A stretch of DNA of 35,129 nt, from NCBI GenBank assembly GCA_947486835.1, contig CANKVC010000003.1:1-35129 (forward strand). The letters are read 5' to 3'. This DNA comes from Cytophagaceae bacterium (GTDB lineage: Bacteria > Bacteroidota > Bacteroidia > Cytophagales > Spirosomataceae). Numbering within the stretch: the first letter of the stretch is position 1; the number at the start of each line of letters is the position of its first letter. The notes below the pieces were generated by a model. That model was not told the DNA's origin and did no database searches. It saw only the letters and a program-made list of their open reading frames with translations. This document shows positions 7,737-14,935 of this stretch, in pieces. A program made the position numbers and the translations under genes.

Positions 7737-8801
7737 ATGAAAACACCTAGTTTATTTGCACACTATTGGTCCGAAAATGAAACATTGACCACTTTCCAAG
7801 AGGTGATGAATTGGGATATTAATCCCATCATCATTGAAATTATTCAAACCGAAATTACGCATCAACTCAATTCAGAATTCATCCAACATACTTTTCCTAA
7901 CTTCAATTGGGAATCCAATAGGTTTACAGAAAAATGGGGTTCAGCCATGCAAAGCCTGTTGATCAATGTAACCCTTCCTGAAAAAATTTGGCTGGATTGG
8001 ATTCAAGATTTAACAAACAAGACCATTGGGACAACAGACGAGGCTAAACCAGCTTCATTAGAAGAAGTCTACCCGTCTTTCGACGAATTGTTAAATGCTG
8101 AAGTGTATTATAGCTCACCAGCTGATTCATTAGAGGACATGAAAGAGGATGACGAGGTGATAGATGAGGTTATTGAGATTAAGGAGGAAGTCATAATCAA
8201 TATCGAAGAAGAAGAAGAAGAAGAAGAAGAAGAAGAAGAAGAAGAAGATAAGGATGAAGAGGAAGATGAGGAAAGTGATTTAAGGATAGATCAAGAATTA
8301 ACTAGCAGTAATGACAATGAATCTATCGAGATAGATTCCATCTTATTCGCTGAAGCTATCGAGGATAATGTGGATGAGAAAGATCAAGAATTTGTCCAAG
8401 AAAATATCGACATTGAATTTTCGGTATTAAATTTAGAAATTGGCTCCAAAGCCCCTTCAGAGAAAAAAATATTGGATATATTGGGTGATTCTCCTGAAGA
8501 AAAGGTTTTTGAGACGCTCCAAGCTAATCAAGACAATTCCCTAAAAGATCGAATTCATACCGAAATGACTTCGTCCTTAGCCGAAACCCTACCCCTTTTT
8601 CAAAAGATTAATTTCATTCAAAATTTATTTGAAGGAGATTCAACATACTTGGATCAAGTCATTCAATTCATAGATCATGAGGCGAATAAATCCACCGATT
8701 GGAAATCAATTTTACAAACAAAATATGCTGCATTCCAACGAGTCGACAATCAAGAATTATGGAATGAACTCTATGAACTCATCGAAAGGAAATTCAGTTA
8801 A
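7737..8801 (+). CDS. Uncharacterised acidic protein with a poly-glutamate tract
   Basis: I do not recognise a characterised family for this 354-aa protein. An N-terminal folded part (about 1-100, rich in Trp and Ile, beginning MKTPSLFAHYW) is followed by a highly acidic, probably disordered middle (about 120-240) with 14 consecutive Glu in an Asp/Glu-rich field. A helical C-terminal part follows (about 275-354, ELWNELYELIERKFS at the end) that resembles the conserved tail of several Bacteroidota hypothetical proteins as I recall them. No signal peptide or membrane segment is visible, so it is likely cytoplasmic. It is 6 nt after rnc and probably in the same operon. The acidity would suit a nucleic-acid-mimic or chaperone-like role, but that is speculation. 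Confidence 0.8.
   Translation: MKTPSLFAHYWSENETLTTFQEVMNWDINPIIIEIIQTEITHQLNSEFIQHTFPNFNWESNRFTEKWGSAMQSLLINVTLPEKIWLDWIQDLTNKTIGTTDEAKPASLEEVYPSFDELLNAEVYYSSPADSLEDMKEDDEVIDEVIEIKEEVIINIEEEEEEEEEEEEEEDKDEEEDEESDLRIDQELTSSNDNESIEIDSILFAEAIEDNVDEKDQEFVQENIDIEFSVLNLEIGSKAPSEKKILDILGDSPEEKVFETLQANQDNSLKDRIHTEMTSSLAETLPLFQKINFIQNLFEGDSTYLDQVIQFIDHEANKSTDWKSILQTKYAAFQRVDNQELWNELYELIERKFS
8205..8246 (+). repeat. (GAA)14 trinucleotide microsatellite
   Basis: Fourteen uninterrupted GAA codons encode Glu14 inside the acidic protein. The run is prone to slippage, but unit changes keep the frame. Confidence 0.97.
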
Positions 8802-8846: not shown

Positions 8847-8879
8847 AAGTAGTTTCATCTAAAAATGAAACTACTTTTT
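8847..8879 (+). promoter_or_regulatory. 12-bp hairpin covering the start codon of the HhH barrel gene, followed by T5
   Basis: Arms 8847-8858 and 8865-8876 are perfect inverted copies with a six-base loop (CTAAAA). The right arm contains the ATG and codons 2-4 of the downstream gene and runs into five T (8875-8879). It could be the terminator of the rnc operon, or a translational lock on the downstream gene, or both. Confidence 0.65.
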
Positions 8880-10820
8880 GTTTTAATTTTATTACTAGCT
8901 TTTAAATCCACTACAGCCCAGCAGTCAGATATGGTTGCCGATGAGGAAAAGCAATCCAATTTTAATTATTTCCTACAAAATCCGCTTCAAATTAACCAAG
9001 TAACTGCGGATGAGCTTTCGGCTTTAGGAATTCTTACTTCTACCCAAATAGGAAACTTTATAGCACATAGGACTCAGATTCATCACTTTGAATCCATCTA
9101 CGAACTTCAAACAATTCATGGTTGGGACCTAGCCCTATTAAAAAAGATAAAACCATTTTTACGTTGTGATAAAATAAATAAAAAATGGTATGAATTTTTG
9201 GAGTCGAAACACCAAATAGTCATCCGAAACGAAAAAACCTTAGAAGAAAAAAAAGGATTTAGCCCTAAAGATTCCAGAAGTAAAACGAGGTATTTGGGTA
9301 ATTCCTGGGGCCAATTAGCTCGATATCGAGGCCAATTAAACAATAACTTACGCGTAGGTGCTTTAATCCAAAAGGATGCAGGAGAGGTAAATTACCTTGA
9401 TTTTAAAAGCATTTTTATCGAAATAAAGCCAAACCGTTGGGTCGATAAAATAATCATTGGAGATTTCATCAATCAATGGGGTCAAGGCCTAGTCCAATCA
9501 GGTGGTTTTTCATTAGGCAAAAGTTTTGAAAGCATCAAAGCCACACAAAAATTTCACTTGGGCGCTATTCCATATACATCTAGCGGAGAATCCTCTTTCT
9601 ATCGAGGATTAAATGTCCAATTTCATGTGAATTCATTTAATTTTCAAGCCTATAGTTCGATTAGAAATTTGGACGCTAGCCTGAGTTCGGATAGCACTAC
9701 AAATTCTAAAAAAATCAATTCATGGATTGAGGACGGATACCACAGAACATCCAGCGAATTATCTCATCATTCAAATGTTCAAGAAACCGCTTGGGGTGGA
9801 AGTATGCAATGGACTCACAAACCCACCCATTTGGCTATTCAATTTAATCTAGCCCATACACTATTTTCTTTAGAAAAATCAAAATCACTTTTGGCCTACA
9901 AGATGAATTCCTGGTCCGGAAACCAAGTTGAAAATTATTCCATTAGCTTTCAAGCCCCCTTTCATAATATTCATTTCACAGGCGAATTTGCCTGGATGCC
10001 TGAAAATCATTTTTCCCTAATTCAAGGCGGAGCCTTTGCCGTTTCTAAAAAAACAGATTTGTCCTACTTATGCAGATATTATGCAAAATCCTATTTCAGC
10101 CCTAAAGCCAAAGGAATTGGAGAAAGTGCAGAAACAAATAATGAAATGGGTTTATTTGTTGGGAATCAAATCACTTTTAACAAAAGAAATAAACTATCTA
10201 ACTACCTCGATATCTTTAAGTTCCCAGGATTAAAATATGAAGTATCCCAACCCAATTCTTGGGGATGGGAAATGCTGAGCCGATACCAATGGGAAAAAAG
10301 AGGAAAATATACGTTTTTTGGCCAACTAAAATGGACGTCTAAACAAAATGATATTTCCCGGATTAACAAGGAACTTTCTCGAAATCATTTAATACAAACG
10401 AGCTTAGATTTACATCAGTTTAAGACCAAGAAATTGGATTTCCATACGCGCATTATGACATGCTTATTGATAGGTGCAAACACAAACGAAACAGGTTTAC
10501 TCGTCTTACAAGATGTTAAATACCAAATACGGTCGCTGGGGATTCAAGCAAGGATAGGGTTTATTCGTTCATCCTCCTATGATTCAAGACTATATGCGTA
10601 TGAAGTGGGTGTACCGCTATCATTTTCACTCCCCGCCTATTATGGACATGGTTTCAGAAATTGCCTCGTACTGGATTATAAATGGACAAAAAATTCCATA
10701 TTTTCCCTAAAAATAGGAAGGACAAACTATATGGATCGGGATGAAATTGGCTCAGGACTAGAGCTAATCAGCGGCTCACACAAAACGGATGTGACTTTTC
10801 AGTGCCAACTAATCATTTAG
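8865..10820 (+). CDS. Outer-membrane-type protein with N-terminal helix-hairpin-helix domain
   Basis: This 651-aa protein has a signal peptide (MKLLFVLILLLAFKSTTAQ, cleavage after about residue 19). A ComEA-like tandem helix-hairpin-helix region follows at about 40-99 (INQVTADELSALGI, then FESIYELQTI). Residues 110-651 are rich in alternating aromatic and polar positions and read like antiparallel beta strands of an outer-membrane barrel. The family-like block GDFINQWGQGLVQSGG lies near 199-214. Homologues annotated only as helix-hairpin-helix domain proteins are common in Bacteroidota; none has a known function to my knowledge. HhH domains usually bind DNA without sequence specificity, so a role in DNA handling at the cell surface is possible but unproven. 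The end lies 1 nt from the convergent murB stop. Confidence 0.8.
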   Translation: MKLLFVLILLLAFKSTTAQQSDMVADEEKQSNFNYFLQNPLQINQVTADELSALGILTSTQIGNFIAHRTQIHHFESIYELQTIHGWDLALLKKIKPFLRCDKINKKWYEFLESKHQIVIRNEKTLEEKKGFSPKDSRSKTRYLGNSWGQLARYRGQLNNNLRVGALIQKDAGEVNYLDFKSIFIEIKPNRWVDKIIIGDFINQWGQGLVQSGGFSLGKSFESIKATQKFHLGAIPYTSSGESSFYRGLNVQFHVNSFNFQAYSSIRNLDASLSSDSTTNSKKINSWIEDGYHRTSSELSHHSNVQETAWGGSMQWTHKPTHLAIQFNLAHTLFSLEKSKSLLAYKMNSWSGNQVENYSISFQAPFHNIHFTGEFAWMPENHFSLIQGGAFAVSKKTDLSYLCRYYAKSYFSPKAKGIGESAETNNEMGLFVGNQITFNKRNKLSNYLDIFKFPGLKYEVSQPNSWGWEMLSRYQWEKRGKYTFFGQLKWTSKQNDISRINKELSRNHLIQTSLDLHQFKTKKLDFHTRIMTCLLIGANTNETGLLVLQDVKYQIRSLGIQARIGFIRSSSYDSRLYAYEVGVPLSFSLPAYYGHGFRNCLVLDYKWTKNSIFSLKIGRTNYMDRDEIGSGLELISGSHKTDVTFQCQLII

Positions 10821-10821
10821 G

Positions 10822-11862
10822 TCAATAAATATTCACTTCGGTTTCAAGGGAAATGCCAAATTTTTCAAAGACCGAAGCTTTGATTTTTTCAGCTATTACC
10901 AAGATTTGGATTCCAGTGGCATGCCCATAATTAACCAAAACCAAGGCTTGATTTACATGCACCCCCGCATCTCCGTCTCGAAAACCTTTCCAACCCGCTT
11001 GCTCAATGAACCAGCCAGCAGGAAATTTTATGTCCGTACTCGCCTCAACAGGATAATTAGGTATCCCAGGAAAAGAACTTATTAAACGATCAGCTTCTTC
11101 AGAGGTTACTGTTGGATTCTTAAAAAAACTTCCAGAATTTCCAATCTCTTTAGGGTCTGGCAATTTACTTTTTCTAATTTCAATCACCACGTTAGATATA
11201 TCGCTAATCGTAGGATTACTTATTCCTTTTGCATTTAAAACAGTTTGAATGGCCCCGTATGAAGTTTTAATATTCGGCTTTTTACTTAATTTAAAACAGA
11301 CGGTTGAGATCAAGTATTTACCCTTTCCTTCATGCTTAAAATAACTTTCCCGATAGCCAAATTGGCATTGATTTTTTTCAAATCGTTCCACAACTAAAGT
11401 TCCCAAATTCAAAGCCTCTAGATGATCAAATGTATCTTTAATTTCAACCCCATAAGCACCTATGTTTTGCATAGGGGCAGCGCCAACAGTCCCTGGAATA
11501 AGTGCTAGGTTCTCGATGCCGGACCATTGATGTTGCACTGCATAGCTAACCAAGTCATCCCAAGATTCCCCCGCACCACTTCGTAAAATGACGTGATCTT
11601 CATCTTCCTGTATAACTTCAAAACCTTTGATTTCATTTTTGACAACCAGCGCATCAATATCTTGTGTACATAAAATATTACTTCCTCCTCCTAAAAATAG
11701 ATGGGGAACATGTGCGTATTGGCCTGCTTTTAGTAAAGCCACATAAGATTCCAAACTCGAAATGATCGTAAAATATTGAGCCTTGACTTCAATCCCAAAG
11801 GTATTGTATTCTTTTAAAGAATAGTTTTCAAACACCTGTGGAACTGAATTGGATTTAGGCAT
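10822..11862 (-). CDS. murB: UDP-N-acetylmuramate dehydrogenase
   Basis: It reduces UDP-GlcNAc-enolpyruvate with NADPH to UDP-MurNAc in peptidoglycan synthesis. The 346-aa FAD protein shows LGGGSNIL (57-64), the FAD-binding IPGTVGAAPMQNIGAYG (122-138), the type I substrate residues in FGYRESYFK (Tyr170, Arg171), the catalytic serine in GNSGSFFKNP (Ser245) and the terminal catalytic glutamate (Glu342). The Tyr-containing loop marks the E. coli-like type I enzyme. It lies directly downstream of the MlaF-like gene with a 1-nt gap, so it probably shares that promoter. Confidence 0.96.
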   Translation of the reverse strand: MPKSNSVPQVFENYSLKEYNTFGIEVKAQYFTIISSLESYVALLKAGQYAHVPHLFLGGGSNILCTQDIDALVVKNEIKGFEVIQEDEDHVILRSGAGESWDDLVSYAVQHQWSGIENLALIPGTVGAAPMQNIGAYGVEIKDTFDHLEALNLGTLVVERFEKNQCQFGYRESYFKHEGKGKYLISTVCFKLSKKPNIKTSYGAIQTVLNAKGISNPTISDISNVVIEIRKSKLPDPKEIGNSGSFFKNPTVTSEEADRLISSFPGIPNYPVEASTDIKFPAGWFIEQAGWKGFRDGDAGVHVNQALVLVNYGHATGIQILVIAEKIKASVFEKFGISLETEVNIY

Positions 11863-11863
11863 T

Positions 11864-12592
11864 TTAAATTAATTTGGTCGATAAAAATTCTTGCAATTCA
11901 GGAACAGTATTCGACATCATATTGGTAGAATTTCCCTCCCACATCTTTTTTCCATCCTTCAAAAACATAATGTATTGCCCCATTCGCATCACAGAATTCA
12001 TATCATGAGAAATCACGATGGTCGTAATTCCATATTCAACCGTTATTTCCTGTATTAAAAGGTCAATTTTAACAGCCGTCAAAGGGTCTAATCCAGAGTT
12101 AGGTTCATCGCAAAAAAGATATTTAGGATTCATCACAATAGCTCTTGCGATACCCACCCGCTTTTTCATTCCTCCTGAAATTTCAGAGGGCATTTGGTTC
12201 GCAGCAGCCTCTAATCCTACCCTTTTTAAACATAACATGGCCTGCTCTGTTTTTTCTTCTAAACCTTGCGAAGTCAGTGTATCTAAAGGAAATCGAACGT
12301 TTTCCAACACCGTTTTTGAATCGAAAAGAGCTCCACCTTGAAAAAGAACTCCCATCTCCCTCCGAATGGCCTTAACAGTTTCCGGATCTGCATTCACAAA
12401 GTCTCTTCCATCATAAAGTACTTTGCCTTTCTCGGGTGACAAAATCCCAATCATACATTTCAATAAAACACTTTTTCCAGTACCGCTACCTCCGATCACC
12501 ATGTTCGTCATTCCTTGTTTGAATACACCACTTACGCCATCAAGAATGACCCTTCCCTCAAATTCCTTGTGTATACCTTTAATTTCAATCAT
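11864..12592 (-). CDS. ABC transporter ATP-binding protein, MlaF-like
   Basis: It is the ATPase of a phospholipid-trafficking (Mla/Mce-type) ABC system by similarity. The 242-aa product carries Walker A GGSGTGKS (34-41), a Q-loop FQGGALFDSKTVLENV, the signature SGGMKKRVGIARAI, Walker B LFCDEPNSGLDP and the switch VISHD. The GALFDSxTV Q-loop and EISGGMKKR are characteristic of MlaF/TTG2A. The frame opens further to 12628, but MIEIKGIHKEF at 12592 is the usual ABC start and the upstream codons overlap candidate -7 elements (12596-12603, 12616-12623). The permease (mlaE) and MCE protein (mlaD) that normally accompany it are not next to it here; murB follows instead. Confidence 0.9.
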   Translation of the reverse strand: MIEIKGIHKEFEGRVILDGVSGVFKQGMTNMVIGGSGTGKSVLLKCMIGILSPEKGKVLYDGRDFVNADPETVKAIRREMGVLFQGGALFDSKTVLENVRFPLDTLTSQGLEEKTEQAMLCLKRVGLEAAANQMPSEISGGMKKRVGIARAIVMNPKYLFCDEPNSGLDPLTAVKIDLLIQEITVEYGITTIVISHDMNSVMRMGQYIMFLKDGKKMWEGNSTNMMSNTVPELQEFLSTKLI

Positions 12593-12615
12593 GCTCAAAA
12601 TTAGGTATATTTTAT

Positions 12616-12623
12616 CAAAAATA
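12616..12623 (-). promoter_or_regulatory. Candidate -7 element for mlaF-like/murB
   Basis: TATTTTTG on the minus strand matches TAnnTTTG and implies a leader of about 20 nt. A second match, TAATTTTG, at 12596-12603 lies 3 nt from the start codon and would give a leaderless mRNA. No -33 TTG at standard spacing is seen for either. Confidence 0.4.
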
Positions 12624-12684
12624 AACACAAATCACCTTGACTAATTAGATGGAGTGATTCAAAAAAATGTGTAAATTGGTTTAT

Positions 12685-12692
12685 TATATTTG
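12685..12692 (+). promoter_or_regulatory. Candidate -7 element for the SPFH gene
   Basis: TATATTTG matches TAnnTTTG exactly. It includes the TTG at 12690 that could otherwise be read as a start, which argues for ATG at 12717 as the true start. Confidence 0.5.
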
Positions 12693-12716
12693 CTCAACTC
12701 ATTAAACCCAATCACT

Positions 12717-13622
12717 ATGTTTTTAATTATTGTCGGAATCGTCCTTTATTTAGCAGGACAAGGTATTGGTAGCCCCAATCTCGTATTTTCAAAATATAGC
12801 CCAACATTCAAAATTGTCGGTATTGTATTTGCCCTCATTGGCATATTAACCTCTGCTGTTAAGCAAATAGATGCTGGAGAAGTAGGGGTACAAAGTGTTT
12901 TCGGTAAGGTGGTTCCAGAAACCTTATCAAGTGGATTGAATTTTGTGAACCCCATTGCCAACGTGTATATTTTCGACGCAAAAACTCAAAATTATACGAT
13001 GTCCGCAGTCCATGATGAAGGAGATAAATCTGGTGATGATGCCATTCGCGTACTTACAGCAGACGGTTTAGAAGTAGTGGTAGACTTAACGGTATTGTTT
13101 AGAATTTTACCTTCTGAAGCACCCAAAATTTTAAAGGAAATAGGTGAAGATTATAAAAATAAAGTGGTTCGCCCCATTACCAGAACCATGATCCGTGATA
13201 ATGCCGTTTATTATGACGCTGTGGCATTGTATTCTTTAAAAAGGAATGAATTCCAAACCAGGATTTACAATGATATTGAGAAAAATTTCAAGAAACGTGG
13301 TTTAGTCTTAGAACAACTATTGATCCGAAATATCAATCTACCCAATTCAGTAAAACAAACGATTGAATCTAAAATTAACGCGGAACAAGATGCTCAAAAA
13401 ATGCAATTTGTCCTTCAAAAGGAAAAGCAAGAAGCGGAAAGAAAACGAGTGGAAGCACAAGGAATTGCCGATTATCAAAAAATATTATCTACCGGTTTGA
13501 GCGATAAACAATTGCAATACGAATCGATTATAGCTCAAAAAGAACTAGCTAAATCTCCTAATGCGAAAGTAATTATCATGGGAAGTGGTAAAGGAACGCC
13601 TATTATTTTAGGAAACAATTAA
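12717..13622 (+). CDS. Prohibitin/SPFH-domain membrane protein
   Basis: This 301-aa protein is of the SPFH (stomatin-prohibitin-flotillin-HflKC) superfamily, which forms ring-like membrane scaffolds that modulate proteases and membrane domains. Two N-terminal hydrophobic segments (about 1-17 and 30-47, the second preceding VKQIDAGEVGVQSVFGKV) are followed by the SPFH/band-7 domain (about 50-230) and a charged coiled-coil stretch with QKEKQEAERKRVEAQG. The C-terminal VIIMGSGKGTPIILGN is typical of prohibitin-like bacterial members. The start is ATG 12717; the TTG at 12690 lies in the -7 element. It is a single-gene unit closed by a bidirectional terminator. Confidence 0.9.
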   Translation: MFLIIVGIVLYLAGQGIGSPNLVFSKYSPTFKIVGIVFALIGILTSAVKQIDAGEVGVQSVFGKVVPETLSSGLNFVNPIANVYIFDAKTQNYTMSAVHDEGDKSGDDAIRVLTADGLEVVVDLTVLFRILPSEAPKILKEIGEDYKNKVVRPITRTMIRDNAVYYDAVALYSLKRNEFQTRIYNDIEKNFKKRGLVLEQLLIRNINLPNSVKQTIESKINAEQDAQKMQFVLQKEKQEAERKRVEAQGIADYQKILSTGLSDKQLQYESIIAQKELAKSPNAKVIIMGSGKGTPIILGNN

Positions 13623-13666
13623 CATGAATGAGTGAAACCATTCAAAATTTTATTGATAGATCTAAT

Positions 13667-13701
13667 AAAAAGGCCGAAGAAAATATCCTTCGGCCTTTTT
13701 T
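13667..13701. terminator. Bidirectional terminator between SPFH gene and ribBA
   Basis: A perfect 13-bp stem (13667-13679 with 13688-13700), including GGCCGAAG, has an 8-base loop and A-run and T-run flanks on either side. It serves the converging genes on both strands. Confidence 0.92.
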
Positions 13702-13714
13702 ATTTTTGTAATTC

Positions 13715-14935
13715 TTATTTGCTTAAAATCGAATGCCCCATCTTATCCCGCTTCGTCTCCAAGTACTTTTCATTGTGCTTGTTGGGCGCAATCTCAATCG
13801 GAATCGAGTCCACTATTTCAAGGCCATAGCCTAATAGACCTGCACGCTTCTTAGGATTATTCGAAATCAACCTAATTTTATGTGCACCCAAATCACGTAA
13901 GATTTGAGCCCCTACTCCATAATCGCGCTCGTCCATGGAAAAACCTAACTCCAGATTCGCCTCAACTGTATCGCGACCTAACTCTTGTAATTTATAAGCC
14001 TTTAATTTGTTTAACAATCCGATACCACGACCCTCTTGGAACATATATAAAATAACTCCTTTCCCTTCTTTTTCGACCATTCCCATGGCGGCGTGCAACT
14101 GATCACCACAATCACAACGGCAACTACCAAAAATATCTCCGGTCACACAAGAACTATGGACACGCACCATCACCGGCTCATTTACCTCCCATTCCCCTTT
14201 AACTAAAGCCAAATGAGTATCTCCCGTATTTTTTTGTTTGAAGGCTATCAATTCAAATTGCCCCCATTCAGTTGGCATATCCACACCAATCTCGCGAGTA
14301 ATCAACGATTCCGTATTTAGCCTATATTCAATTAAATCTTTGATGGTGACTAATTTGAGATCGAATTTATCAGCTATCTTTCTCAGATCTGGCAAACGAG
14401 CCATACTTCCATTATCATTTAATACTTCAATCAAAACTCCTGAAGGTTGAAATCCAGCTAACTTAGCAAAATCCATCGAAGCCTCCGTATGACCAGTCCG
14501 CCTTAAAACTCCTTCAGATTTACTCTTCAAAGGGAATATATGACCAGGTCGGCCCAAATCAGTTGGCTTAGTATTGAAATCCACTAATGCTTTTATGGTT
14601 TTTGAACGATCGCCCGCAGAAATTCCAGTCGTACAACCATTACCTAATAAGTCAACCGACACGGTAAATGGTGTTTCATGCGATGTCGTATTTTGATCAA
14701 CCATCATCTCCAATCCCAACGCTAAACAACGCTCCTCTGTTAAAGAAACGCACATAAGACCCCTAGCCTCTTTTATCATAAAATTGACCAACTCAGGAGT
14801 AATTGCCTCTGAAGCACATATCATATCACCCTCATTCTCACGATCTTCATCATCGGCAACAATAATAATTTTACCCAATTTAATATCCTGAATGGCGTCT
14901 TCAATACGGTCCAATCGAATAGGTAATTCCTTCAT
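13715..14935 (-). CDS. ribBA: Bifunctional DHBP synthase / GTP cyclohydrolase II
   Basis: It provides both precursors of riboflavin: 3,4-dihydroxy-2-butanone 4-phosphate from ribulose 5-phosphate, and the pyrimidine from GTP. In 406 aa the RibB domain (about 8-205) has the acidic loop [10 protein letters not shown] (28-37) and the [11 protein letters not shown] block. The RibA domain (about 212-400) has zinc ligands Cys263, Cys274 and Cys276 ([16 protein letters not shown]) and the FQEGRGIGL loop. Both active sites look complete. It is a single-gene unit; no FMN riboswitch-like leader fits in the short 5' region. Residues 214-225 look like the linker. Confidence 0.97.

Follow-up and report, generated by a model that had tools for sequence, protein, structure and literature searches.

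In pilus-based competence, the PilQ secretin is the gate for DNA in the outer membrane; secretins are multi-subunit assemblies and are used with type IV pili. To our knowledge, little has been described of how DNA crosses the outer membrane in Bacteroidota. In Riemerella anatipestifer, RA0C_RS04915, a proposed outer-membrane barrel, and RA0C_RS02645, a predicted periplasmic HhH protein, are both essential for transformation; the transformation proteins of this species include RA0C_RS04915/RS04920, and the screen concluded that its transformation machinery is unusual (PMC8459023). A literature search found no paper on a protein that joins an HhH domain to a barrel.

The window, the whole stretch of 35,129 nucleotides that was analysed, comes from the Aquirufa lineage of the Cytophagales, and its close named relatives are Aquirufa and Cytophagaceae MAGs. 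Its HhH-barrel gene (8865..10820, forward strand) encodes 651 residues plus the stop codon and is present once in the window genome. The signal peptide, HhH and beta-rich part that a sequence-only reading had assigned to this open reading frame were recovered by reading of the sequence, Pfam and AlphaFold. The signal peptide predicted by reading the sequence, residues 1-18 (8865..8918, forward strand), reads MKLLFVLILLLAFKSTTA|QQ. Its predicted cleavage between A18 and Q19 fits the Bacteroidetes Q-rule, by which a Gln follows the cleavage site (PMC10653852). Among close relatives, selection on the gene is purifying, with dN/dS of about 0.13-0.16 over the whole gene and 0.06-0.14 over the HhH domain.

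The barrel part covers residues 115-650 (9207..10814, forward strand). The AlphaFold model, built with 71 homologues, has a pLDDT of 87.8 and a pTM of 0.81, and consists of helices in residues 24-98 followed by 24 long strands in residues 115-650, as counted on the model; the barrel topology suggested from sequence is therefore also what structure prediction returns. With its signal peptide and its predicted closed antiparallel barrel, whose closure is judged from strand order, the protein has the characteristics of an outer-membrane beta-barrel. The HhH domain would lie on the periplasmic side, because an even number of strands follows it. The barrel part of about 540 residues is matched by no Pfam or NCBIfam family. 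Foldseek returned generic large barrels at TM scores of about 0.35-0.47 (TonB-dependent receptors, the usher FimD and the barrel of the Mtr complex), and no other kind of fold came up among either solved structures or viral models. The probable extracellular loops carry conserved motifs, among them KDAGE, GQGL..GF..GK..E, G.HRT.SE, NE.G and YAYE. Across the 71 sequences, conservation is 0.60 for residues assigned to the lumen and 0.39 for those facing the lipid, an uncalibrated comparison, and the net charge of the lumen is positive in all 71, with a mean of +8.6 as a raw value uncalibrated against other barrels. A positive, conserved lumen of this kind fits DNA as the cargo, with both values uncalibrated against other barrels.

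In six Aquirufa species the barrel gene contains an in-frame TGA at one shared codon (about codon 545), in the context GAY TGG GGA TGA CTR. The carriers are L056, L057, L058, L060 and L024-L029, of which L056, L057 and L060 are the isolates A. nivalisilvae, A. beregesia and A. ecclesiirivi. Purifying selection acts on both sides of this codon, with dN/dS of about 0.09-0.15 before it and 0.10-0.21 after it, at dS from about 0.7 to saturation. Insertion of selenocysteine was rejected, since no selB exceeded the cut-off in ten Aquirufa genomes and no covarying structure was present. A genome-wide reassignment of TGA was not supported, as TGA ends other genes at the same loci. Stop-codon readthrough is the likeliest cause of the conserved TGA, and would make this gene a candidate case in an outer-membrane protein.

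The ComEA-type HhH domain (HHH_3, PF12836) occupies residues 41-100 (8985..9164, forward strand), as placed by Pfam, a genome search, a ComEA profile match and a census of the hairpins. The window protein lies just below the Pfam cut-off (8.9e-6, 26.2 bits against 27), and relatives exceed it, with 38.6 bits in L081 and 41.5 in L126; in all, 21 of 22 relatives are matched, the best at 2e-11. A profile of 22 family members matches solved ComEA over the HhH region (8dss at 4.7e-7, and also 8dfk). The ComEA family cut-offs are missed: the window protein scores 20.7 bits against 152.35 for the comE model TIGR01259, for which the best relative tested reaches 33.6, and the score for TIGR00426 is 28.3 bits against 53.1.

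Canonical HhH hairpins touch the phosphates of DNA through a GxG motif. The tandem HhH of the sequence-only reading resolves into one HHH_3 domain with two hairpins, the first of which is without GxG in the window's lineage. The window's hairpins, LGILTS and IHGWD, both presumably periplasmic, are degenerate, and the hairpins are degenerate in the Cytophagales and Sphingobacteriales. Among the 71 aligned sequences, GxG is found in none at hairpin 1; at hairpin 2 the first glycine is kept in 36 and the second is replaced by Asp in 58. Some deeper branches retain GIG in hairpin 2 (L181, L182 and L195). The glycine hairpin that the sequence-only reading named as needed for DNA contact is absent at hairpin 1 and altered at hairpin 2 in the window's lineage and survives in some deeper branches, so the domain partly fails the check set by that reading. 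The positive charge expected alongside it does not discriminate, since the net charge of the domain has a family mean of -3.2 and that of ComEA 8dss, counted from the profile alignment, is similar at about -2; charge was therefore dropped as a pointer to or against DNA binding. The simplest inference from the sequences is that the domain derives from a ComEA-type DNA binder and has since decayed in the window's lineage. Nearly every surveyed genome has further HHH_3 proteins, and one of them is usually a small ComEA-like protein of about 140-365 aa, so the HhH of the barrel is not necessarily the chief receptor for DNA. Such a separate small protein is usual in barrel-carrying genomes as well, which counts against a role of the barrel in DNA uptake. 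The window genome, which is 90% complete, yielded no small ComEA-like protein, and the HHH_3 search found just the barrel and a 720-aa protein that is probably Tex.

The barrel family is found by profile search in 206 of 238 Bacteroidota genomes that are at least 95% complete, some of the weak matches covering the HhH alone. Families were named from named loci or from gene content; f25, which is probably Flavobacteriaceae as judged by gene content, and f24 have no barrel apart from weak matches at the HhH level.

Outside Aquirufa, 57 of 91 loci have, directly upstream and on the same strand, a gene for one outer-membrane protein of about 272 aa; its most frequent arrangement is a 4-bp overlap with the start of the barrel gene. 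The model of this protein (pLDDT 92) has a helical N-terminal part and 14 strands that form a barrel, and the nearest folds are PorV and FadL structures, headed by PorV of the T9SS translocon (TM 0.78, 6.2e-11). The closest NCBIfam family is PorV_fam (PorV/PorQ), at 51.8 and 35.5 bits against a cut-off of 90. Among Cytophagales other than Aquirufa, a full-length barrel match in a genome goes with a strong partner match, even where the two genes are unlinked (G037, G041, G055 and G056), and genomes lacking the barrel gave no strong partner match. Across the phylum, with tables read by eye, the partner is matched at 1e-12 in 131 of the 206 genomes that have the barrel and in 2 of the 32 that do not (Fisher 3e-10, from these counts and ignoring relatedness). 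All Aquirufa genomes searched gave weak partner matches and no strong one. The window gene at 7737-8801 was considered as the missing partner and rejected, as it matches neither the partner profile nor a membrane family. It lies between rnc and the barrel gene and encodes an acidic protein of 354 aa with a long Glu run, which is conserved across the compared Aquirufa loci and has no family match.

Co-occurrence with comEC and dprA, which had been proposed as a check, was run and proved uninformative, because both genes are near universal (each in 235 of 238 genomes). The link to competence genes emerged instead in a stronger form. In Arcticibacter pallidicorallinus (L126), the partner (9124-9930), the barrel (9920-11959) and comEC (11956-14118) form an overlapping run, the last confirmed by Pfam ComEC at 3.7e-55. 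Four further f22 genomes (L131-L134) also have comEC directly after the barrel. In this family, Sphingobacteriaceae as judged from one named member, comEC directly follows the barrel stop at each of the 30 loci read, these being the best 30 barrel loci fetched from its order, and the partner is upstream in 26 of the 30. The barrel gene is therefore encoded with a known competence gene in one family.

Positions compared by eye revealed no adjacency of barrel and comEC in other families (in G037 they are about 11 kb apart), so the linkage rests mainly on this one family. In the window genome, comEC (C8) and dprA (C47) are not adjacent to the barrel. Two f23 genomes, G090 and G146, and the L067 locus have a divergent dprA about 4-5 kb from the barrel, a few genes off. 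The remaining neighbors in other families are mostly housekeeping genes that vary by lineage, and in many Cytophagales loci genes for an Omp85-domain protein and an lgt-like protein lie close by, the latter recognized by reading its sequence.

Some genomes without the barrel keep comEC, namely those of one genus of the comEC-linked family (g40) and those of f25, so any role of the barrel must be lineage-dependent. In G269, the one g40 genome read, comEC is retained beside the same merR-type gene while partner and barrel are both missing. Set against the locus of G135 (L133), that of G269 (L148) lacks the two as one unit between the merR-type gene and comEC. In seven genomes of the comEC-linked family (G307, G379, G381, G391, G326, G350 and G420) the barrel match is split or contains internal stops, which may reflect repeated gene decay, with contig or gene ends as the alternative cause. 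Among genomes at least 93% complete, four from two families have no comEC match and no barrel match either; three of them belong to f55 (G222, G262 and G270) and G043 is a member of the order, and G222 and G262 are also without a dprA match.

With comEC next to it at every locus read in one family, the barrel may be a missing entry gate for foreign DNA, and this operon is the evidence from gene order that points to a role in competence DNA uptake. We consider it probable, on balance, that the barrel and its PorV-like partner make up a two-barrel outer-membrane complex that feeds DNA to ComEC. In most lineages the large barrel would act with the 14-stranded PorV/FadL-like barrel encoded directly upstream, and in the window's lineage it would stand alone. 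Double-stranded DNA from the surface would pass through or along the 24-stranded barrel, and the periplasmic HhH domain would receive it or dock a small ComEA-like protein, before handover to ComEC at the inner membrane. Also in favor of this reading are the retention of comEC without the pair in G269, the nearby dprA in another family, the joint lack of comEC and barrel matches in four genomes, and the GIG hairpins of some deep branches. Against uptake stand the confinement of the comEC operon to one family, the degenerate HhH hairpins and the absence of the partner from the surveyed Aquirufa. The broader proposal, which we hold tentatively and with rather less than even confidence, is of a pilus-independent, non-secretin DNA gate, formed by a fusion of a barrel with a ComEA-type domain and usually accompanied by a PorV-like barrel, in most Bacteroidota outside Flavobacteriaceae, where a different barrel would serve. 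If the reading is right, a single gene pair present in most of a phylum that is dominant in gut, soil and water would stand as a candidate for the outer-membrane step of horizontal gene transfer.

The main rival to DNA uptake is a protein translocon of the SprA-PorV type, which we regard as unlikely while still giving it real weight. PorV is the closest solved structure to the partner (TM 0.78) and PorV/PorQ its closest NCBIfam family, FadL-like subunits accompany large barrels in both SprA-PorV and BamA-BamG (PMC12578637), and degenerate HhH hairpins would suit the docking of a protein. There are f35 genomes, however, that carry the barrel and show no SprA match, so the barrel is not a part of the T9SS, and a T9SS component was rejected on this ground; moreover, comEC is the only informative operon partner found.

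The confinement of the comEC linkage to one family, the loss of the barrel from many genomes that keep comEC and the housekeeping neighbors elsewhere would also suit a nutrient or general channel, for nucleic-acid fragments, nucleotides or another solute, that has no part in transformation and is linked to comEC by an accident of lineage. This seems less probable still than a translocon, since the conserved loops and lumen indicate a specific, constrained job and the linkage holds in 30 of 30 loci of the comEC-linked family. Least probable, and in our judgment very unlikely, is a factor for outer-membrane biogenesis or envelope maintenance that would pair with a FadL-like subunit much as BamA does with BamG. 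The Omp85-domain and lgt-like genes near the barrel in many Cytophagales loci and a weak BamG match of one partner (0.0013) speak for such a factor, yet that match, at 17.9 of 250 bits, misses the BamG cut-off, and many genomes as large as those of free-living bacteria have lost the barrel.

Among known systems, ComEA shares with the present protein the HHH_3 double-hairpin domain, the profile matches to 8dss and 8dfk and, in one family, the coupling to comEC. ComEA is small and stand-alone, whereas here the HhH forms the N-terminal part of a protein that continues as a 24-stranded barrel, its hairpin 1 in the window's lineage has no GxG, and the ComEA model gives 20.7 of 152 bits. Riemerella competence likewise belongs to Bacteroidota and involves a barrel and a periplasmic HhH protein. 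Compared by description, RA0C_RS04915 has a carboxypeptidase-regulatory domain and is reported only from Flavobacteriaceae, and RA0C_RS02645 has its HhH at residues 236-301 with no barrel described; the barrel and the HhH, assigned there to separate proteins, are joined in one polypeptide here. Since each of these proteins is essential for Riemerella transformation, the pairing of barrel and HhH is plausible, again by description. SprA-PorV resembles the present pair in combining a very large barrel with a 14-stranded subunit of the FadL fold, but SprA has about 2,400 aa, while the barrel here has about 540 residues, carries an HhH domain and is found in genomes without SprA. The proposed likeness to PilQ lies in letting DNA cross the outer membrane, which in the present case would take place in a barrel predicted to be a single chain rather than in a multi-subunit secretin.
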